Virus record (IMG/VR): IMGVR_UViG_3300044293_000595
Span: 1 to 26,521 of that record
DNA: 26,521 bases
Source of the DNA: a virus
Strand: one strand, 5' to 3'
The stretch's first letter is position 1, and each line of letters begins with the position of its first letter. The notes below the pieces were generated by a model that saw nothing but the letters and a program-made list of their open reading frames with translations, was not told the origin of the DNA and made no database searches. Shown piece by piece: positions 2,915 through 22,200 of this stretch. Made by a program: the position numbers and the translations under genes.

Positions 2915-5900
2915 TCAAGGAGAACTTTTGCCAACACTAACATTATATCCAGGAGACACGTTAACTTGTTTATTAGTGCCTTGTGCCATACCTCGCATCA
3001 CTTCAACAACGATAGAATCATTTCTTGTAACGAGAGCTTTTTCAAGCTCTTTTGCGTCTAATCGTATTTCAAATTTTAATTCTATTTTTGTGTTACCAGA
3101 TTGAATTGTAGGTGTACTTAACACGGTATTCACTTTGTTATTCGCGAAGGAAGTAGCATCAATTTTTACCAGTTTATTAGTGTCTAAGGCTTGTATCGTA
3201 TTTTGCAGCGTCTCTCTGAGTTTATTAATCTTATCTAAGTCTGTTTGTATCGATTCGATTTGAGTAGTTGACTCTTTTATTTTAGTTAACGTACCACCAA
3301 TTGAATCTACAAAAATATATTTTGTTTGATTCATCCATTTGTCAATCCTGGATGCGATTCCTGTCTCCTGTAAGTCTGGAATATTTTTGAACAACTCTGA
3401 CGTCGCATTATTCATTTTTTTAACTGCATTTGCAAGTCCATTAATTACCCTTGAAGGACCTTCGGTGTCTATTTGAAGTCTTGCGAAATCATCGAATTTA
3501 TTTTTGATGCTTTTAGTAACATCATACGCTTCTGTGAATGCTGTTTCTACTGGTCTTAAATCAAAAGATTGTCCTACAGATAAGTCACGTACGATTGTGT
3601 CGTTCAACCTTGCGATTGAAGTACCAAGGTAATATATTACATTTTCTGCATCTTCTGTATCTTTATCTGTAATTTTTAGTTGTGGATTTCCTAGTTTCTT
3701 TACAAGTTCAGGAAGGCCTAGCAAAGAAGTAAAAACAACATTTGAAGTTTCTATGATCTCTTTTAAGTCTGATGTTTTAGTTTTAATTTCTTCGATGTTT
3801 TTTGTTACGTTTCCTGAACCACCAGAAAAAGATGATATGATAGAATCCAACATCTGTTTTTGGTTCTTGGCAAACTCTACAATGTTATATGCTGTCGAAC
3901 CTGCCACAGAAGCGCTTCCAAACCCCTTTAAAGAATCAGAAGAAGTTTTTGAAGCATTTGCAATCTCACCCATCGTGATGATAAACCCCTTGAATCTCAG
4001 CAAGGTCTTCAAGGTTGATTCCATTTGTTCTCTTTTATTTTCTTCTACATTTTTATCATCGCTGAATAAATTTAAATTAATTCCAGACAGCGTGGAACGA
4101 ATAGCATCAAGGTTTTCTTTTAATTTTGCAGCACCTTTTGTAACATCTTTTGCGGTCTTGTCAATTTGTGCTATTTTTTCTTTAAACGTTAATATGTTAA
4201 CAGGGCCTTTAGACTTTGCCCCTATCGACTCCATGAATTCGTTATATTCATCTTCTTCAACTTTTTCTCTAGCTTGTCTCTCTAATTCTTTATCTGCTTT
4301 CTTTCTTTCTTCAATTAATTTTTTTTCTTTTCCAGCATTATCTTCTTGAATCTTCTTTGCGGCTTCAAATTTTTCTTGCAATATAGCTCTTAGTCTTTTA
4401 GCATCATCTTCATCAGATGCAAACCAGCTTCTTCCTCCGATCAATGCTCCGTATTGATCCAAAAGATCGTCATCTGTCATTCCTTCAAATGATAGCTCAG
4501 TCATTCCTCCTGATCCAGATGGTCGTACACCAAATCTTATCGCAAATTGTTCTGCATTGTCGTTTATATTTTCAAGTTCTTTTGCCGCTGATTGTTGCAT
4601 TTCTTCAATTTCATTATATGCATCAAATATTTCACGGCCGAGCGACCAAATTGCTCCGGACCCGGCGCCGATCAATGCTCCAATGGGGCCGCCTAGCATA
4701 AAGCCGATCGCGGCGCCACCACCCGCGCCGCCGAGGGCCGCTGCGACCGCTTGACCATCTTTACCCGCGCCCGCCTGTTCTGCGATTAATCTTGAAAGTT
4801 CAGAGGCCGCGATGCCGCCGGCGACGCTACCCAATGTCATGCCGAGTGGGCCCGCAGCGAGGCCTTGAAAACCGCCTGGTGTTGCCATCCCGGCGCGAAG
4901 AGCTTGGAACGCTCCTACAGGGGCTGGTGGGACGGGGACTGGTGGGACGGGGACTGATGGGACGGGGACTGATGGGGGTGTCTTCAATAATTGCGTTAAT
5001 TGCTGAATCTGTTTTCCTTGCTTGTACGTTTTATATGCCGAGTAACCTTCTGCGGCCGTGCCTAAAATACCTTTATCACCAGATGCAGCCACACCAAAAA
5101 GTCCAGCAAGCGCTAACTTTCCTTTATTTTCTGAAATCTTTTGTTTGAGATATTCCCAAAGATAATCAACACCTTCTTTTAGAGATTTTATTAACGATTC
5201 TTTTAACGGTGTCCAAATTCTATCGAACTGTTTTCCTACTTTTTCAAAGCTTGTCATCGCCGCTTTTCCAATTGGAGATAATTCTTTACTTGCAGACTTA
5301 AGAATATCTTTTCCGTTTGGAAGTTTTCTCTTTCCTTCAAAGAAATCAGCGATGAAAGAAAGTCCTTCTGCGACAACATCTCCTATTCCAAGAATAGCGG
5401 TCGCAATAATCTGTTTAATAGCACCCCAAAATTCTGATACACCGTTTAAGAATTCTTGACCTGCAGGTCCTTGTTTTAGGAAATAACTTTTTATACCATT
5501 GAATAAATCTTTGAATAAATCCTTGACATCGCCGGTACCATTCTTCAAATTCTTAAAGAAATTTTCGAATGACGTCGTAAATCCTCCGAATAAATCTCCG
5601 ATCTTCTTCGGATCAAAGAATTTAGCTAGCGCATCTAACATCTGTTTCAATCCAGGAAAAGTTGACACAATAATCATGCCTAATTGTTTTCCTGCCATGA
5701 ACACAGCGTCCAAAGCCATCGCAAGATTTGCAAGAACTTTTTGAAACGGACCAGATAGAAAAATACCTTCAAAGATTCCATCAAGAAATGCATCAAAAAA
5801 CCCAGAAGATGATCGTTGAATTTGTTTCAACGACATTGCAATACCTTTCATAGCCTCTTCCATGATATCGCCGGTCGAACGTGTTTGTTTGGCAACTCCT

Positions 5901-7300
5901 GCAGAAGCATCTTTAATCGCATCAAGAGAATTTGCTTGATTCCTGTTGGAAAGCATATTCTTTACAGTGGCTTCATCTGTTCCGATCAAACTAGCGGCAT
6001 AGCTTAATTCTCTGCGGCTTAAACTATCCAATGATTTTCCTGCAGCTGCGAAGGAATCTTTCAACATTTCCATTCGCTCTTCAGGAGTTTCTGCTTCAAC
6101 TAACTTCATCGTGTCAAGATTAACGCCGAATGCTTGCGATAATTTTGATACGCTTTCAGCAGCTGATTCGAATGTATCAAACTTGTCAAGAACTCCAACA
6201 ATCTTATCAAGCGAAACTCCCATCTTCATAGCATACGCGGCTGATTCTGCCATCGATTGCACAGTGGCTTTACCAAAATGCTTAACATCTTTTGCTGCAA
6301 GCAATAAGTTTTTCGATAAAACTTTAACGTTTAAATTTAGACTTTTTCCAATACCTTGAGAAAACTTCAACATGGATTCTTGAATACTGTCGATGCTCTC
6401 TCCAGTTGTATATGCCATGTCCATTACTGCTTTAAAATCTTCAGTCGTCTGACCGAGACCTTTCGCAAACATTGCAATTTTTGTAGCATTATCTTCAAGT
6501 TGATCGCTCAATAAAGAAGCCATCTCAGCAGAGCTTGAAGCAAGACCAAGAGCATAATCTGCAGCTTCAGTAATGCTTCCGAATATTTGCCTCACAGCTC
6601 CTGGGCTGTACATGCCCATCACTTTTTTGACGAATCCTGATATTTGTTTTCCTGAACCTTTTTCTAGATTTCCGAAAGTTTCTTTTACTTTTTCAATGGC
6701 TTGAGCAGCCTCAAACATTCTATTTTTTACTTCATCAGACATTCTGACCATCGTCTCAAATGCGTTTGAAGCAAGATCGATTACTCCACCGATAATAGAC
6801 TTTATAGCTCCTACCGCTGTAGATAATACGTCAAATATCCCACCGATGACTGAAGCGGCACCTTTTATAGCTTTTCCTAATAAATTGAAAGCTCCTCCGA
6901 GAGCTATAACTCCAGCTTTTGCAACTTTTGAAGATTTACCTAATTGTTCAAATACGTTATTCTTTCCATCACCACCTTTTTTAAATCCAGCTTCTTTATT
7001 GGCTTTTTCAAGAGCTTTTCCTTGTTTTATGATTGCGCCGGTTAATGAATCTATGTTTTGTGAAGTTGTTGCTGAAGAATCACTAACGTTTTTCATTTCA
7101 GAAGCTGCTTTAGAAGCACCTTCTGCTGCAAGTTGAAAGAAAGCGCTGGATTGTTGCGTAACACTTTGCAACTCTTGGGACATCTTTGTATTGGCCGCGA
7201 TGAACTCTTCAAGAGTGACCTTGGCTCCACGCATGATTTCTTGGAACTCTTTAGCTTTTTTTGATCCTTCAGCAAGAGGGTCTAGTTTATACTTAGCCAT
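2915..7300 (-). CDS. Tail tape measure protein
   Basis: This is the longest gene in the window (1461 aa) and sits where tape measures sit, after the tube and small assembly genes. Visible features are an N-terminal helical region, a hydrophobic Gly/Ala/Ile/Val stretch at about 130-178, long helical and coiled-coil segments, a Val-Pro repeat at about 777-793, and a glycine-zipper-like hydrophobic segment at about 862-886. The charged, Lys/Glu-rich segments and hydrophobic patches fit a protein that spans the tube and is delivered into the cell envelope. At the usual rule of about 1.5 angstrom per residue it predicts a tail of roughly 220 nm, against about 100 nm for T4. T4 gp29 has 590 aa. The start at 7300 has GAGAG upstream and lies 14 bp after the preceding gene. 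The 4630-4990 stretch is far richer in GC than the rest. Confidence 0.85.
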   Translation of the reverse strand: MAKYKLDPLAEGSKKAKEFQEIMRGAKVTLEEFIAANTKMSQELQSVTQQSSAFFQLAAEGASKAASEMKNVSDSSATTSQNIDSLTGAIIKQGKALEKANKEAGFKKGGDGKNNVFEQLGKSSKVAKAGVIALGGAFNLLGKAIKGAASVIGGIFDVLSTAVGAIKSIIGGVIDLASNAFETMVRMSDEVKNRMFEAAQAIEKVKETFGNLEKGSGKQISGFVKKVMGMYSPGAVRQIFGSITEAADYALGLASSSAEMASLLSDQLEDNATKIAMFAKGLGQTTEDFKAVMDMAYTTGESIDSIQESMLKFSQGIGKSLNLNVKVLSKNLLLAAKDVKHFGKATVQSMAESAAYAMKMGVSLDKIVGVLDKFDTFESAAESVSKLSQAFGVNLDTMKLVEAETPEERMEMLKDSFAAAGKSLDSLSRRELSYAASLIGTDEATVKNMLSNRNQANSLDAIKDASAGVAKQTRSTGDIMEEAMKGIAMSLKQIQRSSSGFFDAFLDGIFEGIFLSGPFQKVLANLAMALDAVFMAGKQLGMIIVSTFPGLKQMLDALAKFFDPKKIGDLFGGFTTSFENFFKNLKNGTGDVKDLFKDLFNGIKSYFLKQGPAGQEFLNGVSEFWGAIKQIIATAILGIGDVVAEGLSFIADFFEGKRKLPNGKDILKSASKELSPIGKAAMTSFEKVGKQFDRIWTPLKESLIKSLKEGVDYLWEYLKQKISENKGKLALAGLFGVAASGDKGILGTAAEGYSAYKTYKQGKQIQQLTQLLKTPPSVPVPSVPVPPVPVPPAPVGAFQALRAGMATPGGFQGLAAGPLGMTLGSVAGGIAASELSRLIAEQAGAGKDGQAVAAALGGAGGGAAIGFMLGGPIGALIGAGSGAIWSLGREIFDAYNEIEEMQQSAAKELENINDNAEQFAIRFGVRPSGSGGMTELSFEGMTDDDLLDQYGALIGGRSWFASDEDDAKRLRAILQEKFEAAKKIQEDNAGKEKKLIEERKKADKELERQAREKVEEDEYNEFMESIGAKSKGPVNILTFKEKIAQIDKTAKDVTKGAAKLKENLDAIRSTLSGINLNLFSDDKNVEENKREQMESTLKTLLRFKGFIITMGEIANASKTSSDSLKGFGSASVAGSTAYNIVEFAKNQKQMLDSIISSFSGGSGNVTKNIEEIKTKTSDLKEIIETSNVVFTSLLGLPELVKKLGNPQLKITDKDTEDAENVIYYLGTSIARLNDTIVRDLSVGQSFDLRPVETAFTEAYDVTKSIKNKFDDFARLQIDTEGPSRVINGLANAVKKMNNATSELFKNIPDLQETGIASRIDKWMNQTKYIFVDSIGGTLTKIKESTTQIESIQTDLDKINKLRETLQNTIQALDTNKLVKIDATSFANNKVNTVLSTPTIQSGNTKIELKFEIRLDAKELEKALVTRNDSIVVEVMRGMAQGTNKQVNVSPGYNVSVGKSSP
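4926..4970. repeat. 15-bp tandem repeat, three units plus a partial, inside the tape measure gene
   Basis: Three consecutive 15-bp units (GGTGGGACGGGGACT with G/A variation at the second base) run from 4926 to 4970, followed by a partial unit. On the coding strand each unit encodes five residues of a Val-Pro rich linker (S/P-V-P-V-P). Such in-frame minisatellites can expand or contract without breaking the reading frame. Confidence 0.85.
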
Positions 7301-7314
7301 TTATCTCTCTACTC

Positions 7315-7620
7315 TCAAAGAACCCAAAAAATTCCAAAAGTTTTTCCAAAAGCCTCTGCAGCAACATGCTTCATGGAAAGCTTATTAAAAACGCCGTCTA
7401 AATTTGTTTGATCATGGAATAGCTCATCTTGAAACTTTTTTGTCTCAAGCATTACATCCTTAATGATCTTAATTTGATCATTTGTTCCAACGAGATCAAT
7501 GTTTAATTTTTTACCGTTTGAAATCCAAGAAGCCACCGATTCAAATAATACTTTTTGTGTATAAGGATCACTCCCAAGGGTTTTTAAAAAAATTTTAAAA
7601 TTCTCGTTGTGGTTTATCAT
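7315..7620 (-). CDS. Small protein of unknown function upstream of the tape measure
   Basis: This is a 101-aa protein (begins MINHNENFKI), predicted alpha-helical and moderately charged, with no recognised motif. It lies between the small assembly-chaperone-like ORF (51 bp upstream) and the tape measure (14 bp downstream), which is where tail-assembly chaperones or tape-measure partners are encoded in many tailed phages. Its ribosome site is poor: the 35 bp before the start are AT-rich, and the only purine-rich stretch (AGGGGG) is about 37 bp upstream. Translation may therefore depend on coupling or on a different start. I do not recognise the family. Confidence 0.7.
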   Translation of the reverse strand: MINHNENFKIFLKTLGSDPYTQKVLFESVASWISNGKKLNIDLVGTNDQIKIIKDVMLETKKFQDELFHDQTNLDGVFNKLSMKHVAAEAFGKTFGIFWVL

Positions 7621-7671: not shown

Positions 7672-7956
7672 TTACGTAAATCTTCTAAGCCTTGAAGGAG
7701 TTTCTGTTCTAGCATTACCTAACAAGGCTCGCGTATCAGGAGCATTATCGTGCAAGGCCCTAGATTGAGTATATCCTTGTTCGCTTGTTCTAGATAATTC
7801 TCTGCTTATCCTCTGAATAAACCAATTTTTGTATGAGACTGGCATATTATAGGCTTCTTTGTACGTAAAGCCGCCATAATACATCAGCAAAAATATAGGT
7901 TCTAGGATGATATCAGACTTATCTTCAGGACGTAGGCCAAAGAAAGCTAACACCAA
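7672..7956 (-). CDS. Small tail-assembly protein overlapping the gp26-like gene, possible +1 frameshift product
   Basis: This frame overlaps the end of the gp26-like gene by 32 bp and has no ATG at its head. The available starts are TTG 7956, GTG 7953 or an ATG about 27 codons in, which would cut into a conserved-looking block (MYYGGFTYKEAYNMP, then W-F-I). That block resembles the short helical partner of tail-assembly-chaperone pairs: aromatic/Gly-Phe-Thr, a Glu-Ala-Tyr, Met-Pro, then Trp. In T4 the gene after 26 is 51, but this protein is much shorter than T4 gp51, so I do not use that name. It may be made by a +1 shift at TCC-TGA (7925-7930) at the end of the upstream gene, which would give a fused protein of about 369 aa, or by independent initiation. 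Confidence 0.6.
   Translation of the reverse strand: MVLAFFGLRPEDKSDIILEPIFLLMYYGGFTYKEAYNMPVSYKNWFIQRISRELSRTSEQGYTQSRALHDNAPDTRALLGNARTETPSRLRRFT
7925..7930 (-). promoter_or_regulatory. Candidate +1 recoding site, TCC-TGA
   Basis: The gp26-like gene ends in codons TCC TGA followed by A. A +1 slip (to CCT, then GAA) enters the downstream small frame directly. UCC-UGA is the shift site of eukaryotic antizyme, and CCC-UGA is used in some phages. A strong Shine-Dalgarno-like AGGAGG lies upstream at 7969-7974 with an in-frame ATG at 7963, twelve codons before the stop. I see no obvious downstream pseudoknot. The role is inferred from arrangement. Confidence 0.35.
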
Positions 7957-8785
7957 GTGGCATGTTCACCTCCTCGGAATGTCCACACTCTGGGCATGTC
8001 ATGTCTTGCTTCATTGTTAATCCAGGCTCATTTTGACGAATGTAATTTCTAAGCGCCAAAGAGTCTCTAGCAGGCATGGCCTTAATGAAGTTATTGATCT
8101 TTGCACGATCTTCGATTCCACCGACTGAGACAATCGCTTGTTGTAATGCGGTTGTAACCGTAGAATCAGTCTTTAGTCCAAGCTTCTTTTGCTTCTCTTG
8201 AATTACAGTAAGCTCTTCTTCATCTTTGCCCGTCGTAAACTTGAATAAAACTTTCTTCTTCGTATGAGGAAGAACGAACTCAAATAGGTTTTGTCCCTCG
8301 GTCACTGGATCAATTTCTAATCTCTTTACAGGAAGTTCTGCAAGATTAAACGTTTGCTGGCTCTTAGCTTCACATTCTGGACAAGAAACTTCCGCTGTAT
8401 ACTCGGCGCCGTACCCAGTTATTCTTACAGCAACCATCAATGCATTTCTATCTCCAGCGACGAGATCTAATGTATTGATTGATTTATCAATCAGACAAGA
8501 CTTAATTAACTCAGTTACGACTGTTCCTTTTTTAAGAAGCGCGCGGCTTGTTAAAATGTCTTCTTCACGAGCAGTCATAGGACGAATCTCAACCATGTCT
8601 TTTCCATGAAGAGAAGATGACGGAGGATATACTTTGCCATTAGAAGGAAGAGGAACAAGCTCTGTTGGAATGTCAAGACCAAATTCTGCTTTTACAACAT
8701 CAGCTTGGGACATCGATGGAATTCTTGAATCATGCGTTTGTGCCGGAGTAAAAACTGAATTCTTAATTTCTCTATTATCTGACAT
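7925..8785 (-). CDS. T4 gp26-like baseplate hub / tail assembly protein
   Basis: This 286-aa protein shows the marks of the T4 baseplate (gp26-type) family: the block around IRPMTAREEDILTSRALLKKG (about 67-87), a first zinc-knuckle CPEC at 135-138, a second at 264-267, and an ending in FLWP (281-284), much like relatives that end in FFWP. The two CxxC pairs probably bind one zinc. T4 gp26 is 208 aa and acts in baseplate hub assembly. The start at 8785 has AGGAG 5 bp upstream. The gene follows the tube (separated here by the broken endonuclease) and leads into the small overlapping ORF and tape measure. That order matches chaperone genes of other tailed phages, so a role in chaperoning tape measure and tube assembly is plausible. 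Confidence 0.8.
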   Translation of the reverse strand: MSDNREIKNSVFTPAQTHDSRIPSMSQADVVKAEFGLDIPTELVPLPSNGKVYPPSSSLHGKDMVEIRPMTAREEDILTSRALLKKGTVVTELIKSCLIDKSINTLDLVAGDRNALMVAVRITGYGAEYTAEVSCPECEAKSQQTFNLAELPVKRLEIDPVTEGQNLFEFVLPHTKKKVLFKFTTGKDEEELTVIQEKQKKLGLKTDSTVTTALQQAIVSVGGIEDRAKINNFIKAMPARDSLALRNYIRQNEPGLTMKQDMTCPECGHSEEVNMPLGVSFLWPTS

Positions 8786-8855: not shown

Positions 8856-10513
8856 TCACGCAGAAATTAACAAATAGTTACCACAACCCCAAATTTCAGA
8901 TACACCGGCATTCATCGCAACCTTTACCTGGGATAACCCATTTAACTTATCTGCTTTGTACTTAAATCGATTAAACCTGTTTTCAAAATCAGTCCACCAG
9001 AATCTAGGACCGGTGCTTTCTTTTTCAAGCTTCCATGTTTCCGAAGATGTATACCCGTCTCCATTTCCAACCCTGGAGTCTACATACGTCATCAAACCTT
9101 GATATCCATTGTATTTTGAATATCTTAATGACTCTTTCGTTAGCCTTCCAATCCATCCTCTGACAGAAATTCCTGGTAACATCGCAGACCTAGCAACTTC
9201 TAATCGGGAAGATTTTGAAGCATGAAAAGGTTTTCGTAAAGACATCGCTGCATATACTTTACCTACCCCATCAACAAGACCAAACGTAATAATGTTTCTT
9301 GTTGAACCTTCAAGATGAGATTTTCAAAAAAGATGTTTGATGATTTTGAATCTATCTCTTCAAGCTTCAATGACCTTGCATCATAAGTTTCTACACACTT
9401 ATCCAACCTGTGACGAAGCATTCCTTCGACAATATTTCGTTTATCTCTCCATTCATCTTCATAAATTCCAAAAAAACGATACCCTGCACTTACCGTAGCC
9501 AGTCTCTTTTTTCATGATAATCTTTGTCCAAAATTCTTGCAGATGAATGCCAATATAAGCCGTTATATTCGATTGCAAGACGGGTTGATTGAACAAGAAC
9601 ATCTATCTCTAATGGAGAGATGAGGGATCGATCATTAGAAACTACGTTAACGCCAAGAGATCTAACAAAAATCCAATACTTCCAATTGACCCCTTGATTC
9701 CTTAGGATGACACACATGGCATACAGGAGTTGCCTCAATCATCATCATGTTTTTTAGTTGGATCGATTGGCAGTTCCTACATTTTAATCGAAGCTTTTGA
9801 TACCTGTTTCGATAGTCCTTTGGGTTCGATAATAAATCAAATATACCAGTTTCATTTATCCTAGATTCAACTTCATCAGGTGACAATCTCTTTGCAGATG
9901 CGTCAAGATTATTTTTATAATTCTCACTTATGGAAATTGATGACTTTAATAAAGAATTACTCACGTCCTTCGTGAGCCCAAGATTCCAAGGTACAAGCTC
10001 GCCGGAAGCATATAATCTTTTCTTTGTCTCAGAAACCTTCTTGGCAACCTGAATTGCTTTTTCTGGATTTAAAATATGCCAATCAGTTATCCTTCCTGTA
10101 TCATAACCTTCTTTTAAAGATGATGATATTTTTACGCTAATCGCAGCAACCTTCTCTGAAGATTGCTTCGTTAACCCAGAATTCCAAACAGAATATTTTC
10201 CCTGTTTGTATCCTTCAGATCTTTTCTGAGCAAACTCAGCTTGTTTATCTGGATTTAAATAAACAGAATCAACTCTTGCATTGTGTCCTCTAACATACTT
10301 TGAAATGAAACCCTTTTTCCATCCCATCCAACTTAATTTTTCTTGGCATTCTTCATTACAAGCGCAAGTTGGATGTACTCCACCAAAATGAGTATCAAGG
10401 TAATGTTGAAGATGATTCTCAACAAAATGTATGTCGGTTAAATGTTCAAGAAATCTTGATTCTTGCCCAAATGTTTCATCACATTTTGAACACTTAATAC
10501 GAATATAGGCCAC
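8856..10513 (-). pseudogene. Broken Vsr-like homing endonuclease (three frameshifts)
   Basis: Four consecutive frames encode pieces of one protein homologous to the intact endonuclease at 11164-12822. Frame 1 (from GTG 10513) carries the zinc finger, the CxC/GH module and three W-x-x-GL-type repeats, then hits a stop at 9664-9662. Removing one base from the five-A run at 9667-9671 leads into frame 2, with LEIDV and AIEYNGLYWH. Adding one base at the six-T run 9507-9512 leads into frame 3, with IYEDEW. Adding one base near 9321-9331 leads into frame 4 (9245-8856), the C-terminal domain ending in IWGCGN. With these repairs the gene is 1659 bp, 552 aa, the same length as the intact copy. No substitution-type stop was seen. 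Neighbouring 1000-codon genes are unbroken, so real decay is likelier than poor sequencing. Confidence 0.85.
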
Positions 10514-10553: not shown

Positions 10554-11042
10554 TCAGTATTGCAATACGCAATTATCGTAGCGAAGTGTTAGAGCAATTT
10601 CAACAGGAGCTCCATCTTCGTATGTAACTTCATTGAAGTTTGCATCTGTGATGAATGCGCCTTTGATATCCCATAATTCAACGACGGTACCTACTGGGTC
10701 AAGCATCTTCAATTGAATATCACGCTTATAAAAGTCTGCGTAACCAGAACGTCCTGATACGGATTCGAAGTGTAGGCGAATCCATTCCATGACCTGTTGA
10801 GCGCCCGATGGAGCAATTGGATCATGAAGCGTCACGTTCATTGCATTGAATGTTGTCTTTCCAGCTAAATAACGAGTTGAATTTATGAATGGAATTGTAA
10901 CTTCTTCAGTTGTGACCTGTGGACGGGCAGCAGTTTTGATGATATATGCATCAACACCCTCGATCATGAGAACCCAGCGATTCTTACGCTTTGGCTCGAA
11001 TTTATTTGGAATCATTGATGTAACGTCTAATGTCTCAGCCAT
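10554..11042 (-). CDS. Tail tube protein, T4 gp19-like
   Basis: At 162 aa it matches the T4 tube subunit (163 aa). Family marks are an N-terminal KRKNRWVLMIEGVDAYIIKT, a run like FINSTRYLAGKTTFNAMNVTLHDPI in the middle, a Q-VMEWIRLH helix, and a C-terminal beta strand ending in RYDNCVLQY. The protein forms the hexameric rings of the inner tail tube through which DNA passes and around which sheath polymerises. The start has AGGAG 9 bp upstream and a full copy of the ATACTTAT motif 31 bp upstream, so it has its own promoter candidate. In T4 the tube directly follows the sheath; here an endonuclease on the opposite strand has been inserted between them, and a second, broken one lies downstream. 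The tube gene itself is intact. Confidence 0.92.
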   Translation of the reverse strand: MAETLDVTSMIPNKFEPKRKNRWVLMIEGVDAYIIKTAARPQVTTEEVTIPFINSTRYLAGKTTFNAMNVTLHDPIAPSGAQQVMEWIRLHFESVSGRSGYADFYKRDIQLKMLDPVGTVVELWDIKGAFITDANFNEVTYEDGAPVEIALTLRYDNCVLQY

Positions 11043-11163: not shown

Positions 11164-12822
11164 ATGGGTGATGATAATAAAAATGCATTGAGACCAGCAA
11201 AGTGCCCTTTATGCAATAACTTTGAATCAAAACGATTGACATCTTTTAAAAATCATCTTATATCTGAGCACAAGACTACAACACAGTTATTGTGGAACCA
11301 AATCAATGGTGGACCAAAAAAATGCGCATGTGGATGTGGTCAAGACACAAGATGGATTGGGTGGTGGAAAGGGTATTCGACAGTAATCAACGGTCACAAT
11401 GCATCGATTTATAAAGTGTTAGACGAAGAGTCAGCAAAAGAAATTTCTAGAAAAAGATCAGAATCTCTAAAAGGAAAATCAGGATGGTCCAAGGGATTAA
11501 CTAGCGAAACAGATGATAGAATCAAACGAAGAGCAGAAGCAACGAGTAAAGGCAGAAAAGATAAATTCGTTCAAGGGTCAATTAAGGTTTGGAACAAAGG
11601 GTTATCTGTAGAAACAGACCAAAGAATAGCAAGGTTTAGAGAAAATTTAAAAAACAAATTTGCTGTTGGAGAAATAATTCCATGGGCTAAAGGTCTAACG
11701 AAAGAAACAGACGATAGAATTAAATCTATGTCGCAAAAAGTTTCGTTAAAAATGAAACAAAAGCAAATAAGAGAAAGACTAGATCACCTTAAAAGATTAC
11801 CTTACGATGAAATTATAGGAAGAATTGAAAAAACAGGACAATTAAAAGTCATCGGTGGGTTAGAAAACTATATCAATGATGCACAAAAAATTATTGTCGT
11901 TGAATGTGGCGGATGTGGAAAACAATTTCAAGGTTCTTTAAGAAGCTTGCAACGTGGAAAATGTTTCTTTTGTTCTCCTGGCGGATCCGCTGCCCAAGAA
12001 GAATTAGCCAAATGGATAGAATCTTTAGGATTCGACGTATCAAGAAACGTTAGAAAAATGTTGGGTGGATTGGAACTTGATATCTTCATAGAAGATAAAA
12101 AACTTGCCATAGAATACAGCGGATTGTACTGGAATAGCCATGTCAATAAGACGCAAGGTTATCACAACAATAAAACAACCATTGCAGAACAATCTGGCAT
12201 CAGGTTAATGCACGTATTTGAAGATGAATGGAGAGACAAGCGGTTTATCATTCAATCAATGATTTTGTCTCGTTTAGGAATTTCTCAAACCAGAGTTGCT
12301 GCAAGAAAGTGTATGATAAGGCAATTATCAAAAACGGAAAGAAAAGCTTTTTTTGAAGAAAACCATGCAGATGGAGATGTCGTCTCCATGGATTCATGGG
12401 GGTTAATTGATGATAAAGGTCAAATCGTCTACGGCATTTCAGTGAGAAAGCCTTTTCATAAAAAACATGATGGAATAGAAATCGTAAGATGTTGTCCGAA
12501 AATAAATCATAATGTTCCAGGAGGCATCAGCAGGCTCATAAAATATGTTGAAAAATGGGCAAAAGAAAAAGGATATAACAAAATTATAACATATGTTGAC
12601 CACCGCTGGGGAGGATCTGGGGATGGTTATAGAAAGGCAGGATTCATACAAAAGTCAAAGACTCCTCCGCGGTTTTGGTGGACGGATTTTGAGAACAGAT
12701 ACAACCGTTTTAAATTTAAAGCAGACTCTTCAGAAGGATTAACAGAATCTCAAGTTGCTGAATCTGCGGGGGTTGTAAAAATTTGGGGATGCGGAAATTT
12801 TATCTTCGAATTGGAAGTTTAA
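11164..12822 (+). CDS. Intact Vsr-like free-standing homing endonuclease
   Basis: This 552-aa protein has a C2H2-like finger (C14, C17, H31, H36), a Cys-rich C54/C56/C58 module with GH at 77-78, three repeats of the form W-x-KGL-x-x-ETD-x-RI (about 108-120, 143-155, 174-186) typical of NUMOD-like DNA-binding repeats, and a second zinc ribbon (C248/C251, C267/C270). A Vsr/PD-(D/E)xK-like nuclease core follows: D306 in LDI, E317 in AIEYSGLYW, H334, and FEDEW at 352-356. The C-terminal part (about 405-552) has an acetyltransferase-like look and ends in the usual IWGCGN. It lies opposite to all flanking late genes, between sheath and tube, and its stop shares TTAA with the sheath stop. The gene probably makes a break in phage DNA to spread itself; the target is unknown. 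Its ribosome site is weak. Confidence 0.88.
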   Translation: MGDDNKNALRPAKCPLCNNFESKRLTSFKNHLISEHKTTTQLLWNQINGGPKKCACGCGQDTRWIGWWKGYSTVINGHNASIYKVLDEESAKEISRKRSESLKGKSGWSKGLTSETDDRIKRRAEATSKGRKDKFVQGSIKVWNKGLSVETDQRIARFRENLKNKFAVGEIIPWAKGLTKETDDRIKSMSQKVSLKMKQKQIRERLDHLKRLPYDEIIGRIEKTGQLKVIGGLENYINDAQKIIVVECGGCGKQFQGSLRSLQRGKCFFCSPGGSAAQEELAKWIESLGFDVSRNVRKMLGGLELDIFIEDKKLAIEYSGLYWNSHVNKTQGYHNNKTTIAEQSGIRLMHVFEDEWRDKRFIIQSMILSRLGISQTRVAARKCMIRQLSKTERKAFFEENHADGDVVSMDSWGLIDDKGQIVYGISVRKPFHKKHDGIEIVRCCPKINHNVPGGISRLIKYVEKWAKEKGYNKIITYVDHRWGGSGDGYRKAGFIQKSKTPPRFWWTDFENRYNRFKFKADSSEGLTESQVAESAGVVKIWGCGNFIFELEV

Positions 12823-15800
12823 ATCTCTGATTGCAAATCGTTAGAGACAATAAAATCTAAAGATAGATAGTCTATCGATTTAGGAGGTTTTATATAAATT
12901 TTTCCTCTAATCGTTTGATTATCAATATCTGTTTGAGAAGTTTGATTAGCTTCGATTTCTATTTTATATTCCTCTAACCCAAATGCTGAACGAATCGGAG
13001 AAAGAATCTCTGTCGCGAGGGTCACGAATCTATCAACAATTACATCTCTATCCTGCTCAAAGACTAATTGTAAAGCAATATTTCTAATCTGTCGTCTAAT
13101 TTGTATTAATAATCTTCTTACGTTTATTCTAGATAATGGCGATGATGAACGATTTAACGTTTTTTGACCTCCTATAAAAACTCCCGATCCTGTACCTCCA
13201 ACATTGGATGGAGCATATAAAAAGTTGATATTTTTTGCATATAGAGAATCAATTTCAGATTTTGTTAACTTTACGACAGTAGAAAAAACGTTTGTTAGTC
13301 CTCCTCTAACATTTCCAGACGGAGACATCCAAGATTGTCCTATTAAATCATTTAATGAAACCCCTCCTAAAACAGCTACCGTAGGAGGAACTATAACTGA
13401 ATCTATGCCATATGTACGTGCATCAAGCTTTAACACAACATCTGGATAATATGCCGCGGCAAATGATGTATTTAAAAATCTATTATTAAAATTATCGATT
13501 GTTTTTTGCAGACTAGGTTTCAATTCATCGCTATATGCTATTATCTCTGACATGTTTATGTTTTCATCGTTGTCGCTAATTTGTTCAATATCCATTAGGT
13601 ACAAAGAATCTAATCTATTTTCAGCAACGTCAGCTGCTTCATCAGTTATGATAGGCGCTCTTATTCCAGGTATGGCAAGAATTTGCATATCAACTGCAGT
13701 TGTATTTTTTACTATTTCTAATGCTTTTAAATAAGCACCAGCATTTGCACCGGCATCTCTACCTCTATTAATGTCGTACGTGTCAGCGACGACTGCTTCA
13801 TTTGTTAAATTAAACTCATTTTTTTCAAAAATATTAACTCCATCAAATCCTCCGCAAAGGATTGTTTGAAATGATAGAAAATTTCTGCTTGAAACATCTT
13901 CAAGGTCTTTAATGCTCACTCTACGAGTTTTTTCTTCATCATTTATTTGTATGTTACCGTTTCTAACATATTGAGCATATGCCCAATCTTCTTGTGAAGA
14001 ATATCCATTAGATGACGTTAATATTTTTATATTTTCTATAGTAAATAAATTATTACAAAATCTATCTGCATCAATTATTCCAAGTTGTGGTGTATCAGGA
14101 GTTCCGTGATTATCTGAAACTGAAAAGTTAATATTTATTGTAGAATGATTTGGGAAATGTTTTGAAAAACTTAAAATAGACTCGTTTTTATATTGAAAAT
14201 TATTTTGTTTTTCAACATCAGAAATATGATCAAATTTAATTCCCCATCTTCTAACTGCTGATGCATTTTGAGAATTATTTCTATAGACGGAAATGTTGTT
14301 GGAAAGAGGAAGAGGATGAGTTATTAAATTACTTAAAAAATTAGAATTTAATAATGCTGAAGCATCATGACTTGATAAAGATCCCATGATTGAAGATCCA
14401 GACGTAATAATATGGGGTATTCCTCTAAACCCAATAGGCAAAACTTCAATAGGAACTTCAGAATTTGAAACTTCTTTTGAAACTTCTACTCGAATATATT
14501 TTGAACTATTTTGATAACTTCCTTCAACAATTAATTTTTGATTATCATCTGGTCTGTCGAAATCAAAATATGTATATGAATCTCCTATGACTTTTGAGAT
14601 GTATCTATCAGATGATGGATTTAAATTTAAGTTAGGAAAAGATTCTAAAACCGGCATTACTTCATCAAAATCATCGATATCTCTTATCGACAAAGAAAAA
14701 GTTCCAAACTTGTATGTTGATCCATCTTTTATAGGAGTTATATCATGTATGATGATTTTTTGCTTTTTTGTTTGTTCTCCATCATGTAAAGAATGAAATT
14801 TAAATAAATTTATATACTTCCCATGGATTTTTTGAGAAATTATCCAGGGGGTTGAAGCGTGAGAAAATCTATCTCTAAATCCTTCATAATTTGGAACTGT
14901 AGAACTGCCTATATCTCTTGATAAGGATGACGTCAACAAAAACACGGATCGTTCAGTTGAAAAAACCCTTGAAGAATCGGTTGGTACTCCGGCACCTGAA
15001 TTAACTACACCGGTGCCCGTTAACGTAGCTACTGCAGGATGAATATCCCAATTTGCAGCAAGATAATGGCCTGCTTGTTGAATTAACGAAGCAGTCATAT
15101 TCAAGACTCTGGTTATATAAAAAGGTGACTGCATATCTAAAGATGCAGTTATTACATTTGGATAATTAAAAGATCCTTTATGCCCATTTAACAAAAGAAT
15201 AAATTGTTGTAATTGGGCACCGGTTCCTTCATTGAATAATTTTATCGCTCCAACAGTCGTTCCTTTTGCGGTCGAGTCAGATGCAATTTGCGTAGAAGTC
15301 GGGCAGGAAGAATCATGCCCACTTACTGATGCAGAAAGCCGTAAAATAACGCCAGAAGGCGCCATTAAAATGCCTCTTACGATAGGAACAGAAGTATTTA
15401 TTCCAATTCCATTAATGCTTCCAGTACCTTGAATACCTGCAGCGTTAAAAAAAGTCGATCCAGCAGACTCAGACATAAAACATCCTAAAAAGTATGTTCT
15501 TCCTAACGCGCCGCCAAAATTTGCATATGGATTTGAACTCAAAGATCCAGACAGCGTCGCATGATCAGGCTGCTGTTCTCCTACTGTATAACCTGCATTA
15601 ATTACGTCTCCTGCATTCGTTCCAGTTAATACTCTGTTTTTTCCGTTTCCAGTTCCTAAAACTCTAGTAAAAACTACAGACTTTTGATTACTGACCCATT
15701 CATTTACAGCTAAAGCACCGTAGTTAGTTAATCTATCATAAGAAGATATTCTAGATCCTGAAACATAAGGTATTCCAAATTTTTGCTGAAATTTTGCATT

Positions 15801-15947
15801 GGAATCAAAAAAAGTTGGAACGAATGCAGGTCCTGATAGTGACGTTCCTATGATTACAGCGGGAGGTATCGCTAAATTTAAAATAGGGGCAACTATAGTT
15901 CCTAAATCTTGTGCAGAAACTCCAGGACTATTAAACTTGACTGTCAT
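12819..15947 (-). CDS. Tail sheath paralogue A (divergent, 1042 aa)
   Basis: It shares the whole domain plan of sheath B: an N-terminal sheath start (IIGTSLSGPAFVPTF), a large inserted region (GRTYFLGCFMSES, VPIVRGILMAPSG), the block LNLNPSSDRYISKVIGD, GGFDGVNIF, LAIPGIRAPIITDEA, then the C-terminal sheath domain with RINVRRLLI. T4 gp18 has 659 aa. It departs from B and C at signature positions: the usual YPWFAPAG is replaced by QSWMSPSG (about 871-878), and the aromatic residue before GQKT is Gly. The gene is more AT-rich than B and has a weak ribosome site (AAGAAG) and a one-mismatch promoter motif. It is probably a sheath subunit present in small amounts or at one end of the tail, or a decaying duplicate. 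It meets the endonuclease end to end. Confidence 0.85.
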   Translation of the reverse strand: MTVKFNSPGVSAQDLGTIVAPILNLAIPPAVIIGTSLSGPAFVPTFFDSNAKFQQKFGIPYVSGSRISSYDRLTNYGALAVNEWVSNQKSVVFTRVLGTGNGKNRVLTGTNAGDVINAGYTVGEQQPDHATLSGSLSSNPYANFGGALGRTYFLGCFMSESAGSTFFNAAGIQGTGSINGIGINTSVPIVRGILMAPSGVILRLSASVSGHDSSCPTSTQIASDSTAKGTTVGAIKLFNEGTGAQLQQFILLLNGHKGSFNYPNVITASLDMQSPFYITRVLNMTASLIQQAGHYLAANWDIHPAVATLTGTGVVNSGAGVPTDSSRVFSTERSVFLLTSSLSRDIGSSTVPNYEGFRDRFSHASTPWIISQKIHGKYINLFKFHSLHDGEQTKKQKIIIHDITPIKDGSTYKFGTFSLSIRDIDDFDEVMPVLESFPNLNLNPSSDRYISKVIGDSYTYFDFDRPDDNQKLIVEGSYQNSSKYIRVEVSKEVSNSEVPIEVLPIGFRGIPHIITSGSSIMGSLSSHDASALLNSNFLSNLITHPLPLSNNISVYRNNSQNASAVRRWGIKFDHISDVEKQNNFQYKNESILSFSKHFPNHSTININFSVSDNHGTPDTPQLGIIDADRFCNNLFTIENIKILTSSNGYSSQEDWAYAQYVRNGNIQINDEEKTRRVSIKDLEDVSSRNFLSFQTILCGGFDGVNIFEKNEFNLTNEAVVADTYDINRGRDAGANAGAYLKALEIVKNTTAVDMQILAIPGIRAPIITDEAADVAENRLDSLYLMDIEQISDNDENINMSEIIAYSDELKPSLQKTIDNFNNRFLNTSFAAAYYPDVVLKLDARTYGIDSVIVPPTVAVLGGVSLNDLIGQSWMSPSGNVRGGLTNVFSTVVKLTKSEIDSLYAKNINFLYAPSNVGGTGSGVFIGGQKTLNRSSSPLSRINVRRLLIQIRRQIRNIALQLVFEQDRDVIVDRFVTLATEILSPIRSAFGLEEYKIEIEANQTSQTDIDNQTIRGKIYIKPPKSIDYLSLDFIVSNDLQSEI

Positions 15948-16098: not shown

Positions 16099-19000
16099 TC
16101 ACTGTACTTGTTGAAGGTTGTTGGCCACAACGAAGTCCAAGGACACGAACTCGATCGTCTTGGTGGGTTGTAAGAAGATCTTACCACGAACAGTGTTGTT
16201 CTCAACGTCAGCTTGCGTTGTCGTTGAAGAATCAATGATGACGCGGAATCTCTCAAGACCTGCAAGCGCCTGAATTCTCTGTAGCCTTGGTGTTACTGCT
16301 GCAGTGAATCTTGCAAGGGTTGCTTCACGATTCGGTTCAAAGATGATTGTTTGCGCAATTTCACGAACCTGACGACGAATGTCGATGAGAAGACGTCTTA
16401 CGTTGATTCTATCAAGAGCAGATGCTGATTGAAGCATCGTCTTTTGTCCCCATACAACTACTCCTCCTTTTGGATTTGTTCCGCCTCTTGTTGTAGTCGA
16501 TGGAGCATACAACGGGTTGATGTCTTCATCATATAGAGAATCAAGATCTGCATCTTTCAATTGAATGCTAGTCTCAAGCGTTGTTGGAAGTTCTCCTCTT
16601 GTTAATCCTGCTGGAGCAAACCATGGATATCCAAGAGAATCATTCAATGATAAAGCTCCCATTACAGCGACTGAAGGAGGAACTATGACTGAGTTTGTTG
16701 GAAGAGAAGGATCTCTCATTAACAAGTCAGGGAAGTAAGCTGCTGCAAATGAAGTGTTAAGGTTTCTTGCCTTGTGTTGAGCAACTGTTTCAGTCACCGA
16801 AGGTTTGATATTTGACGTAATATTGATCAAATTTCCATCCTTATCAACCTGTTCAATGTCCATGACGTACAGAGCATCGAAACGTTCTTCTGTCGCGCGG
16901 ATTGCTTCATCAGTAACGATTGGAGCTCTGATGCCTGGTATAGCTAGAAGTTGAATATCGACATTGGTCGTATTCTTCATGACCTCTAAGGCCTTTAGGT
17001 ATGCAGATACGTTAGGACCAGATGAACGGCCACGATCTGCATCATCCATATCAGCTACAACTGCTGCGTTGTTGATCTCTGCTTCATCCTTATCGAAGAT
17101 ATTAACTCCATCGAATCCTCCCTGCATGATGAACGAGAATTTAAGGAATTTTCTGTTTTGTGAATTGGACAAATCGCTTACTGCAACGGCTCTTGTCTTT
17201 GCTACGTCATCGGCAGCTATGTTTCCTTTTCTAACGTATGATGCGTCTTTCCAATCATTATTTTGTGCGACTGTTCCATTTGATCCAGTAACGATTTGGA
17301 TGTTTTCAAGAGTGAAAATATTGTTACAGAATCTATCAGCGTCGACTATTCCGTTTTGAACAGTGTCTGCTGCGCCTGTATTATCTCCCACTACAAAGTT
17401 AATGTTTGTAGTAGAATGACCAGGGAAATGTTTGGTAAAGCTATTAAAAGATTTATCTTGTAGAACAGAGCTGTTTTGTTCAGATAGATTGGTTATGTGT
17501 TCAAACTTAACGCCCCAATGGTACCTGGAATTTACTTGCGTCTGTTGTCCTGTTCCATCATTCAAATGATTTCTAAAAGGAAGCGGTGGCTCAACTGTGT
17601 TTCTTGTGAACGTTGAAATCGATAGAGCAGAAGCATCTACTCCACCTAAAGCCGCAAGGGGTGCAGATCCAGATGTCACTAAATGTGTAATTCCTCTGAA
17701 TCCCATTGGAAGAGCAGCAGGATCGACTGCTTGTTCTGCGACTGCTGTCGATACTTCAACTCTAACGTATCTTGATCTTAGCTCATAATTGCCTTCGATG
17801 ACCAATTTTTGAGCTGCATCATCTCTGTCAAAATCGTAGTATGCGTTAACGTCTCCAATAACCTTTGCGATGTATCTGTCAGAAGATGGATCTAAATTAA
17901 TGCCTTCCCATCTTTCAAGAACTTTTTGATCAATGTCCGTATCAAACAAGCTTCTTATCGCAAGGCTAAATGATCCATACTTGTTAAGTGGATCTGAGGA
18001 AGGAGTTATGTTATAGATAGAGATCTTAACCTTGTTAGAGATTCCAGCTCCTGAATCAAGTGCGTGAAGTTTAAATAGATCTGTTGCAGAACCGCCGAAC
18101 TTTTGTGAAATCACCCAAGACGATTTAGCATTTGTGAATCTATCTCTAAACCCTTCATAGTTTGGAACAGTAGAAGATCCAAGGTTTCTTGCCAGGGATG
18201 AAGTCAATAAGAAGACTGATCTTTCGCTTTGATTAACAGGAACAGCAGAAACAACTCCAACTCCTGTCACTGCAGCTAGAGTTGGATGAATATCCCAATG
18301 CGCTGCAAGGTAGTGACCTGCTTGTTGAAGCTTATAAGGGTCTGTATTAAGAACCTTGCTGATATAATTTGCTGCTGTTACATCGAAAGATGCGGTAAGA
18401 ACGTTAGGATAAGATGAATCAGTTCCTTTATGACCGTTCAATAACAAGGTAAATTCTTGTTTTGAAGTAGCATCAGAACCTAACACAACTGATCCTAATG
18501 AAGTTCCTTTTGCATTAGCATCATCTCCTACCAATCCCGAACCAGGATTGCTTGAATCTAATCCTGCTACAGATGCTGATAATCTTAAAACGACCCCAGA
18601 AGGAGCCATTAACACACCTCTAACAATTGGAACTGCTGAGGTAGCGCTGATTCCATTTGCGTTTCCTAAACCTTGAAGCCCTGCGCTGCTAAACACGTTT
18701 GCGCCGAGCGACTCCGACATGAAGCAACCCAGAAAATACGTTCTTCCAGGATTACCTCCTGCATTTGCGTAAGTGTTTGATGACAAGGTTCCATCAGAAG
18801 CAGGTAATTCTTCCCCGACAGTAAATCCAGAGTTTGTTACATCACCAGCAGTTTGTCCGCTTAAGACTCTTTTCTTACCATCTCCAACGCCTAAGACCCT
18901 AAGATATGTAACAGCTGTGGCTCTTCTGAGCCATTCTGCTACAGCCATTGGGCCGAACTTCTTAGAATCACTTTCACCAAACTTTGCAAAGAAATCATTT

Positions 19001-19152
19001 AACGTTCCGTATGTTAAAGGAATAAATGCCGGTCCTTTAACGGAAGTACCAATTATGCCTGCAGGAACACCCGTAGGTGATGTCTCAACTGGTCCTGTTA
19101 AATCAATCTCTCTTGTCGTTACCCCTGCGCTTCCAAATTTGAGCTGTGCCAT
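16099..19152 (-). CDS. Tail sheath paralogue B (1017 aa)
   Basis: This is a clear contractile sheath subunit. The N-terminal part reads EIDLTGPVETSPTGVPAG, then IIGTSVKGPAFIPL. A large insertion shared with A follows (GRTYFLGCFMSES, VPIVRGVLMAPSG), then INLDPSSDRYIAKVIGD, GGFDGVNIF, LAIPGIRAPIVTDEA, the family signature YPWFAPAG (+ strand about 16611-16634) and the C-terminal domain with RINVRRLLIDIRRQVREIA. It is much longer than T4 gp18, so the surface insertions are large. The start has AGGAG 10 bp upstream and a full promoter-like motif 28 bp upstream; an intrinsic terminator follows. Intact signatures, the strong ribosome site and less AT-rich coding suggest this is a main, highly made subunit. 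Confidence 0.93.
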   Translation of the reverse strand: MAQLKFGSAGVTTREIDLTGPVETSPTGVPAGIIGTSVKGPAFIPLTYGTLNDFFAKFGESDSKKFGPMAVAEWLRRATAVTYLRVLGVGDGKKRVLSGQTAGDVTNSGFTVGEELPASDGTLSSNTYANAGGNPGRTYFLGCFMSESLGANVFSSAGLQGLGNANGISATSAVPIVRGVLMAPSGVVLRLSASVAGLDSSNPGSGLVGDDANAKGTSLGSVVLGSDATSKQEFTLLLNGHKGTDSSYPNVLTASFDVTAANYISKVLNTDPYKLQQAGHYLAAHWDIHPTLAAVTGVGVVSAVPVNQSERSVFLLTSSLARNLGSSTVPNYEGFRDRFTNAKSSWVISQKFGGSATDLFKLHALDSGAGISNKVKISIYNITPSSDPLNKYGSFSLAIRSLFDTDIDQKVLERWEGINLDPSSDRYIAKVIGDVNAYYDFDRDDAAQKLVIEGNYELRSRYVRVEVSTAVAEQAVDPAALPMGFRGITHLVTSGSAPLAALGGVDASALSISTFTRNTVEPPLPFRNHLNDGTGQQTQVNSRYHWGVKFEHITNLSEQNSSVLQDKSFNSFTKHFPGHSTTNINFVVGDNTGAADTVQNGIVDADRFCNNIFTLENIQIVTGSNGTVAQNNDWKDASYVRKGNIAADDVAKTRAVAVSDLSNSQNRKFLKFSFIMQGGFDGVNIFDKDEAEINNAAVVADMDDADRGRSSGPNVSAYLKALEVMKNTTNVDIQLLAIPGIRAPIVTDEAIRATEERFDALYVMDIEQVDKDGNLINITSNIKPSVTETVAQHKARNLNTSFAAAYFPDLLMRDPSLPTNSVIVPPSVAVMGALSLNDSLGYPWFAPAGLTRGELPTTLETSIQLKDADLDSLYDEDINPLYAPSTTTRGGTNPKGGVVVWGQKTMLQSASALDRINVRRLLIDIRRQVREIAQTIIFEPNREATLARFTAAVTPRLQRIQALAGLERFRVIIDSSTTTQADVENNTVRGKIFLQPTKTIEFVSLDFVVANNLQQVQ

Positions 19153-19210: not shown

Positions 19211-22200
19211 TCAAACGAACTGAACTCCTGCATTTGTGATGATGAAGTCAATTGCAATGAATTCGATAGCTCTTGTTGGAACAACAACGATTCTACCATT
19301 CAAGCGGTTTAAGTCAACATCCTCTTGCGTGTTATTGGTTTCATTCATTACAACTTGGTATGCTTCGATACCAGCTTGAGCTTGAATTAGACCCAATTGA
19401 AGAACAGAATCTGCAACGAATTTGTTTCTAACTGCAGGTGTGTTCTGTTCAAACACAATTCTGTTTGCTATGTTTATGATAAGTCTCTTCACTTCAAGAA
19501 GCAAACGACGAACGTTTACTCTATCGAGCGCTGACTTTCTTATTTGTAGTGTCTTTTGTCCGTAGATGACAAATCCCAATCTTGGGAATGTCGCGATTGG
19601 ATTGATTCGAGCATCATACAATCTATCTCTATCAGAAACATTGAGTCTAACTTCAACGTTGTTGACGAAATCTAACGCTGCTCTATTAAATCCTGCTGGT
19701 GCAAACCATGGATATGCAACTCTATCATTAAACCCTAGAGCTCCTAATGCTGCAACAGAAGCAGGAACCTTGACATAACGACTATTTGTTGTATCATTTA
19801 CATAAACATTCGGGAAGTAAGTTGCAATATAATTGTTGTCGAATGATCTAGCTTCGAATGTTGCAGCTGTGTTTTCTATGTTAATTCTATTTGTAGAATC
19901 ATCATAGATGCGACCATCATTATCATCATAGTTTGGAAGATCCATTACGTACATAGAAAGTCCATAATCTCTAACTTTCTTTGCTGCATAATTTGTAATG
20001 TAATCTTCACGAATTCCAGGAATTGCTAGCAAGTTAGTGTTAACTTGAAGCGGATCAGTCATAACATCGACTGCAGTAATATATGAATTTACAGCATTGT
20101 TATCGACGCCCGTTCCTGCAAGGTTTGTAAGCAAACCGGGTGATACAAACGTTGATGATGCTCCGCCGAGTGGAGTTTCAAATGAAGTAGCCTTATCATT
20201 CATTCTTGATGCAGCTGAATCAAGAATATTCAATCCATCGAATCCACCTTGCATAAAGGTTGTAAACTTAGCAAATGATGAATACTTGTTAAATTCGTAA
20301 GCCTCGCCATTCGACAACAAAGATGCGAATGTAATTCTATTACCTAGAACTGGATCGTTGACTGTATATGTCGTTGGATCTACCTTGGCATTTCTGATGT
20401 ATGCAGCTTCTTTCATGTGTGAACGAACAGTTCCAGTTAACCCTGCTATTGTTCCTGCTGAGAATGCGACCTTCGACAATGAGAACTTGTTATTGTTGAA
20501 TGTATCTGCTCCTGAACCAGTTACCAAAGCGTCAAGTTTCTTTATTCCACCAAACTTAGTATAGCTCTCAAGAAGATGATTCTTAACTTCTGAAAGATTA
20601 GAATTAAGAGGAACATCATTTCTTTCAAACTTAACTCCCCAGTAGAATTGAGGAGATGCAACTTCTTGCGGGCCTGGATCACCGTCCCACGCTGGTGTAG
20701 TCATTGGACCCTTAGTTACTTTAAATCTGAATGGTACAGGAGGTAGTATAGATTGTGAAAGAATTCCCGTCGAGTCGATCGAGAACAATCCGGCTAATCT
20801 CTTTGCAGAAGTTGCTCCATCAGTTAATGAATCATTGGTCTTCAATAATTCTGGTCCTCTAAACCCGAATGGAAGAGATTTTGCTGGAACCTTCTTATCC
20901 TCTACATCCTGTGAAATAACAACTCTAACATACTTTGAAACATTTGCGTACTTTCCGCTCGTGATTATTCTTCTTTCTGAAAGTATGTCTTGATCAAAGT
21001 CGTAAGTTACCCTACGGTCACCAACAACTTTTCCAATATAGTTGTCAGAATCAGGATCTAAAGAGCAATTTACAAATTCTTCTAAAACTGCAGGATTTAA
21101 ATCTGTATCATTCCAATCGCGAATCTGTAAGTTAAATGTTCCATATTCGTAAGCTTCATTTTCAGAAACTTTAAGGCTTGCGATTGAAACCTTATAAAGG
21201 CTATTTGCATATGCTCCATCATCCAATGATTCAACTTGGAAGAGATCATATTCTGTTTTGCCGAATGGCTGAGAAATAAAGTAAGAAGTTTTTGGAGAAG
21301 TATATCTTGTATCAAATGCTCCAAATGCTTTTCTAAACTCTGTGGTAGGTTCACCAGAAACATTACTTGTTAATGAAGAACCTGATAACACAGCGACATA
21401 ATCATCATTAACGACTGATGCAACTTCATCATCTACTGCAAAATCTGTATATAGAAGATGTTGGTATTGCTCAAATTTTTCTGGGTCTCTATTTAAGACT
21501 TTTCCGACGTAATCATCACTCGTCGGATTCATCGACGCAGTATAGATTTTTACTCCAGGGAGCTTATCATCAAAAGCGAAAGAAGAACCAAGCGTAGAAG
21601 AAATAATTAATTTAAACTTACCACTCTTTACTTGAGCTGCATCGTCGACTGTCGTTGCACCAACAAATGATGCTGCAGTTTGTTGATTTCCGTCAAGAAC
21701 CATCATTCTTGCACCGGAAGCCAACATAACAACACCACGAACCAAGTTAACGTTTGTTGCACTTGTTCTTGAATCGTTGTCAGTAAACATTGGCATTCCA
21801 TAAGCTTCATTGGTTTGAAGGGTATGATCTGCAACCAAGAACTGTACGGCTCCAACGTGACGGCCTGCGGAATCATGCGAAGCCACAGAACCTTCAAGCT
21901 TAAATCCGGCGTTTTTTACTCTTCCAGTAAGAGATGTTGCGCTTATGTCTGTTGCGGTTTTATTCGCACCAGCGCCTAACACTCTCATATAAGTTAAGGC
22001 TGTTCGATTCTTTAAAAATTCGTTTACTGCATAAGGACCAAATTTTTTAGGATCTAAGTTGCCAAAAATGTTAACGAACTCATTAAAATTAGCGACGGTC
22101 ACAGGAACGAATGCTGGACCTTTATTCGCTGTTCCGATCACGCCTGCTGGAACACCTACTGGCCCTCCTCCAGGGGGCGCTTTTAATTCAATTTCTCTCT

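Follow-up and report, generated by a model that had tools for sequence, protein, structure and literature searches.

A candidate programmed +1 frameshift predicted to yield short and long forms of a probable tail-assembly chaperone in a T4-related myovirus

Vladimirov, Gautam & Davidson (2022, Virology 566:9-15) reportedly described frameshifting in several T4-like groups, and separate genes 26 and 51 in T4. Passages of two papers citing this work (Vladimirov 2022) credit it with the identification of the tail-assembly chaperones of T4-like phages (PMC10885494, PMC12846349). In these passages, some T4-like phages are stated to use a short and a long gene in place of frameshifting (PMC10885494), and polyT −1 signals are mentioned for other T4-like phages (PMC12846349). 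T4 gp26 and gp51 appear in a review among the hub assembly chaperones (PMC3004832). The G-T frameshift is widely conserved in long-tailed phages except T4, according to Atkins 2016, where the tail chaperone of halovirus HSTV-2 is reported to be made very likely by a +1 shift (PMC5009743).

The window (the whole stretch of DNA analysed, a 26.5-kb record of an uncultured virus) carries two overlapping frames on its minus strand, referred to here as TAC-N (ORF1) and TAC-C (ORF2), and shown in Table 1 with their neighbours. The ORF1 protein has two CxxC zinc-ribbon pairs and ends in ...GVSFLWPTS*. It scores 69.9 bits against the PF12322 HMM, above the curated cut-off of 24.5, and so belongs to the family that includes T4 gp26 (215.6 bits, the type of the family) and T4 gp51 (177.5 bits); its PHROG match is a baseplate hub protein. 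The 3′ end of ORF1 reads GTT AGC TTT CTT TGG CCT ACG TCC TGA. The ORF2 frame is bounded by a TGA at 7968–7966 and by its own stop at 7674–7672, and the overlap with ORF1 is 32 bp (7956–7925). No ATG is present at the head of ORF2, where the only start-like codons are TTG 7956 and GTG 7953. The overlap, the frame, these codons and an AGGAGG followed by an ATG had all been described in an earlier sequence-only reading, and all proved correct on the minus strand. ORF2 itself does not match the DUF6760 (PF20546) HMM, and its link to that family is indirect, through 39 of 63 aligned relatives that do match (best 6e-5).

Table 1. Features of the window that are discussed in the text; the slip, the long product and its C-terminal portion are predictions.
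Feature	Position	Strand	Remarks
TAC-N, gp26-like ORF1	7925..8785	minus	Pfam T4_baseplate PF12322, phrog_150; 286 aa
TAC-C frame, ORF2	7672..7965	minus	+1 relative to TAC-N; stop-to-stop 97 codons
TAC-C portion translated after the shift	7938-7675	minus	GLRPEDK...RRFT
Predicted long product TAC-NC	7675..8785	minus	370 aa, CTTT read as one Leu step; inferred product
Proposed slip site CTT TGG	7937..7942	minus	Conserved motif in 98/107 +1 loci; codon choice beyond usage
Proposed slip, P site	7942-7940	minus	CTT, re-pairing on TTT 7941-7939
Proposed slip, 0-frame A site	7939-7937	minus	TGG
SD-like AGGAGG	7970..7975	minus	27 nt upstream of P-site codon
ATG in ORF1 frame behind SD-like element	7961..7963	minus	Would begin MPLGVSFL...
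TCC-TGA, ORF1 end	7925..7930	minus	Conserved in close relatives only
Tape measure gene	2915-7300		PHROG assignment
Frame between TAC-C and tape measure gene	7315-7620	minus	101 aa
Overlapping fragments between tube and gp26-like genes	8856-10513	minus	Last one matches C-terminus of the homing endonuclease family
Tube gene	10554-11042		PHROG assignment
Homing endonuclease gene	11164-12822	plus	Complete, 552 aa
Tail-sheath paralogues	12819-15947, 16099-19152, 19211-22237	minus	PHROG tail sheath; ~1,010-1,040 aa each

The two frames are located between the genes for the major tail tube and the tape measure protein, with pieces of homing endonuclease intervening. Three tail-sheath paralogues lie adjacent to each other, and a complete endonuclease gene, encoded on the other strand, separates a sheath gene from the tube gene. 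Of the overlapping fragments between the tube gene and the gp26-like gene, the last matches the C-terminus of the same endonuclease family, and they are apparently a decayed copy. The small frame that precedes the tape measure gene gave no confident family match.

All 12 close relatives from IMG/VR (58–88% protein identity) retain the overlap, the +1 frame and TTTCTTTGGCCT. The wide comparison added phage records, 80 further viral contigs and 20 loci from genome assemblies, and gave a non-redundant set of 110 loci (<90% DNA identity); the small domain is in the +1 frame in 107 of them, so the overlap cannot be due to chance. Of these 107 loci, 98 carry the 12-mer TTY-YTT-TGG-YCY in frame (with TAC replacing TGG once), most often as TTT TTT TGG CCT (69 loci), TTT CTT TGG CCT (17) or TTC TTT TGG CCT (5), the rest being minor variants. 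Among cultured phages, Flavobacterium phage immuto carries TTT-CTT-TGG and Microcystis phage Mel-JY01 carries TTT-TTT-TGG. In eight of the nine remaining +1 loci this place is taken by TTT with T or C as the next base, the ninth being L124. In the window, the 12-mer begins with the codon before the proposed slip site (TTT 7945–7943), and the first +1 codon after the slip would be GGC 7938–7936.

The codons of the motif are strongly constrained. The P-site Phe codon is TTT in 81/81 loci (58.6 expected from usage) and the P-site Leu codon is CTT in 17/17 (5.5 expected), although the loci share ancestry, so these statistics are not independent trials and overstate independence. YTT-TGG does not occur in frame elsewhere in these genes (0/26,917 codon pairs), and third codon positions, which vary almost freely before the motif, are fixed inside it. 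The loci range in G+C from 0.28 to 0.59 and in protein identity down to about 37% in viral contigs and about 24–30% in phage records, which argues against simple inheritance. Past the site, the median open length in the group of the window is 82 codons in +1 and 2 codons in −1. The comparison therefore gives strong support to a real candidate for programmed +1 frameshifting, with the slip predicted at CTT-TGG (7942–7937). The suggestion of the sequence-only reading that a +1 shift would join the gp26-like protein to its small neighbour is likewise supported.

The place of the slip is probably not the one first suggested. The suggestion had been a +1 slip of the antizyme type where ORF1 ends, at TCC-TGA, and these codons are found in the window and in most close relatives. 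However, L001 reads ACC-TGA, L012 lacks them, and most of the 98 loci have lost them; the ORF1 stop is found at distances of 12 to 33 nt from the motif. The conserved element, TTY-YTT-TGG-YCY, stands in the window four codons before TCC, and a slip at TCC-TGA can be considered highly improbable.

Within the motif, re-pairing of YTT in the +1 direction is the only movement that suits all three sequence variants. The codon before it offers a rival, UUU-C, in which the Phe tRNA would move from UUU to UUC and give ...VSFF-GLR. Re-pairing would be perfect in the window, UUU-CGU is the PA-X site of influenza virus, and UUU-C may be the slip site in the eight outlier +1 loci, which have TTT-C or TTT-T without YTT-TGG (e.g., L015, L019, L022, L120 and L121). 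As the site for the whole group it is nevertheless rather unlikely, since 6 of the 98 loci have TTC-T, which is unable to re-pair on UCU, whereas YTT-T suits all 98. Two other conceivable ways into the frame are a −2 shift and slippage of RNA polymerase on a run of T, either of which could be allowed by the TTTTTTT present in at least 69 of the 98 loci. The window and 16 other loci have TTTCTTTGG instead, and six have TTCTTTTGG; T runs in these do not exceed 4 and −2 re-pairing is not available, which excludes both processes there and leaves them with a minimal probability overall. For a +1 slip at CUU, the predicted junction in the window is ...NMPLGVSFL-GLRPEDK..., and the three candidate slip codons predict different junction peptides: QDMTCPECGHSEEVNMPLGVSFLGLR (CUU), ...VSFFGLR (UUU) and ...VSFLWPTSEDK (TCC).

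An independent start of ORF2 at TTG 7956 or GTG 7953 was the case that the sequence-only reading had set against a shift. Such codons occur in the window and in part of the relatives, and the overlap would permit translation from them to be coupled to the termination of ORF1. In four close relatives (L002, L007, L008 and L011) the two codons read TCG GAG, which rules them out as a conserved start. In 41 of the 98 loci, no ATG, GTG or TTG occurs between the upstream stop and a point 8 codons beyond the slip site. Stops in the second frame come as near as 6 nt upstream of this site, no constraint on the ORF2 frame is visible upstream of the motif, and the SD-like element of the window is too distant from TTG 7956 (13 nt) and GTG 7953 (16 nt). 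The chance that ORF2 is started in this way appears very slight.

A practical consequence is that automatic gene prediction cuts the TAC-C frame short or overlooks it. It is annotated from an internal ATG in the public records of immuto, SP-15 and S-RIM8 (L013, L019 and L145), and is without annotation in those of SagM-GXN1 and LIS04 (L015 and L018).

Upstream of the slip site, GGAGG is found in the region in 71 of 98 loci, against 16.4 expected from synonymous shuffles, and in 62 of the 98 its distance from the P-site codon is 20 or 26 nt. Known stimulators act from about 3 nt (RF2) or about 10–14 nt (dnaX), and the distance of the SD-like element does not fit these. An RF2-type site, with a stop in the A site and an SD about 3 nt upstream, was not found, the A-site codon being TGG and the SD-like element 20–26 nt away. 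Predicted RNA structure downstream of the site did not differ from control stretches (mean z about −0.3, approximate shuffles).

The AGGAGG of the window could have a different role. The sequence-only reading had offered as a second option a short product that shifts frame; translation would start at ATG 7963, and such a leader would yield TAC-C alone besides the fusion. The enrichment of GGAGG is in keeping with this, and in the window the ATG, which precedes the ORF1 stop by 12 sense codons, is suitably spaced from the element. The start codon, however, is inconsistent among relatives. An ATG is found at this place in 23/98, and among the 62 loci with the element at its two main positions, about 30 codons reading ATG, GTG or TTG occur in the ORF1 frame within 3–12 nt (21 of them ATG). 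Where the element is at −25, in 19 loci, a start codon hardly ever occupies the usual spacing in the ORF1 frame. Relatives mirror this option in part, the SD-like element being enriched and the start behind it inconsistent; an internal start is unlikely, though it retains some small probability.

A second group, of cyanophage-like T4 relatives, carries the homologous two domains in a different frame. TTT TTC closes the gp26-like gene in cyanophage S-RIM8, Aeromonas phage 65.2 and phage SRB7757, forming the canonical −1 heptamer T-TTT-TTC, and the small domain follows in −1. Scanning with the S-RIM8 protein yielded 80 loci, and together with these phages there were 75 non-redundant loci. All 75 of these cyanophage-like loci (a few other phages included) have T-TTT-TTC and TAC-C in −1, CM1 having TTTTTTTA, and the open length after the slip has a median of 63 codons in −1 and 8 in +1. 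TTT-TTC is also present in BF, Atu_ph07 and L017. Three loci that could be taken for ordinary ATG-coupled starts (L017, L020 and L021) carry TTT-TTC and fall in the −1 group. The −1 signal is absent from the group of the window, where TAC-C is in +1 and the site is TTT-YTT-TGG.

Profile comparison (hhalign) aligned the TAC-N domains of the two groups with a probability of 97.4%, up to the final F-F, and their TAC-C domains with a probability of 94.7%. Since the TAC-N profiles align through the last two Phe codons and the TAC-C profiles also align, the polarity differs at a positionally homologous site. On these grounds it is proposed, tentatively and with slightly less than even confidence, that an orthologous chaperone gene switched polarity at the same Phe-codon pair, with −1 at T-TTT-TTC in the cyanophage-like group and +1 at YTT-TGG in the group of the window, and that the +1 site represents a new bacterial +1 class, in which the A site holds a sense codon, UGG, in place of a stop, downstream structure is lacking, and the SD-like element, placed distally at 20–26 nt upstream, is a possible stimulator.

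The two domains are also found together without a shift. Residues 1–201 of T4 gp51 correspond to PF12322, and its C-terminus (200–244) matches the cyanophage-like TAC-C profile with a probability of 72%; a direct comparison of this C-terminus with the TAC-C profile of the window was not significant. With this composition gp51 resembles a ready-made long form, which T4 appears to make from a gene of its own. Two Bacteroidota loci (L128 and L129) have PF12322 and DUF6760 in a single uninterrupted ORF, the DUF6760 score being above the cut-off in L128 and just under it in L129. Such a natural in-frame fusion supports the view that a fused product is functional. The placement of the T4 gp26 family among the tail-assembly-chaperone pairs, as the sequence-only reading had argued, is supported.

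Loci from actinobacteria show a further variation, in which a zinc-ribbon gene with a conserved GGGGGAATC is followed by DUF6760 in −1. In eight loci from actinobacterial genomes (L130–L136 and L142) the zinc-ribbon gene ends CTG GGG GAA TCG/TCA TGA with DUF6760 next in −1, and a −1 frameshift at GGGGGAA is likely. In L137 the sequence is GGGGGGC, and DUF6760 lacks any start codon.

TAC-N and TAC-C were modelled separately. Among the solved structures re-aligned, the AlphaFold model of TAC-N (mean pLDDT 89) was closest to YqbN (3klu; Z 5.8, rmsd 8.5, 92 aligned), a member of the XkdN-like tail chaperone family, and then to 2ob9, the tail assembly chaperone of HK97 (Z 5.1, rmsd 3.7 Å, 81 residues), both Z scores being low (<8); the next structure reached Z 3.2. 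The modelled likeness to tail-assembly chaperones at such Z scores is support rather than proof. TAC-C is predicted to form three helices, with pLDDT over 90 at residues 11–50; its model found no match with Foldseek or VIA-align, a result that does not in itself indicate a new fold. A PDB sequence search with either domain profile gave nothing useful.

The sequences themselves show the overlap, the frame, the conserved motif, the lack of usable starts, the homology of both domains to the −1 cyanophage pair and the natural in-frame fusions; that shifting occurs, its efficiency, the exact slip codon and a chaperone role are inferred. Very probably, a T4-related myovirus makes its tail-assembly chaperone from the two frames in a short form, TAC-N, and a long form, TAC-NC, with a +1 slip at CUU/UUU-UGG yielding the latter. 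The majority of ribosomes would complete the 286-aa TAC-N. A fraction would slip +1 while UGG waits in the A site and the P site holds CUU, which in most relatives is UUU; the P-site tRNA would re-pair on UUU and reading would resume at GGC into the helical TAC-C, giving a fusion of about 370 aa. By analogy with gpG/gpGT of lambda, many TAC-N and few TAC-NC may coat the tape measure protein, and TAC-C may recruit tube subunits.

Among known systems, lambda gpG/gpGT is similar in its place between tube and tape measure, its overlapping frames and its short and long products. It differs in using −1 and gpG, whereas the group of the window has +1 and a zinc-ribbon PF12322 protein, with no sequence similarity shown between them. 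HSTV-2, likened here by description, would share a +1 shift in a myovirus tail chaperone. The T4-like chaperones of Vladimirov 2022 reportedly share the combination of a PF12322 TAC-N with a small TAC-C; the signals described in a citing paper are polyT −1, in contrast to +1 at YTT-TGG. The +1 site of RF2 (prfB) is CUU-UGA-C with an SD 3 nt upstream. It is alike in the re-pairing of P-site CUU to UUU and in having U as the fourth base, but has a stop in the A site and a near SD, while the group of the window has sense UGG, an SD-like element 20–26 nt away and no autoregulatory logic. The +1 polarity, the YTT-TGG site and the enriched SD-like element 20–26 nt upstream appear to be new. With both polarities, separate genes and a single in-frame fusion all found in the T4 gp26 family, the evolution of a recoding signal becomes directly testable.
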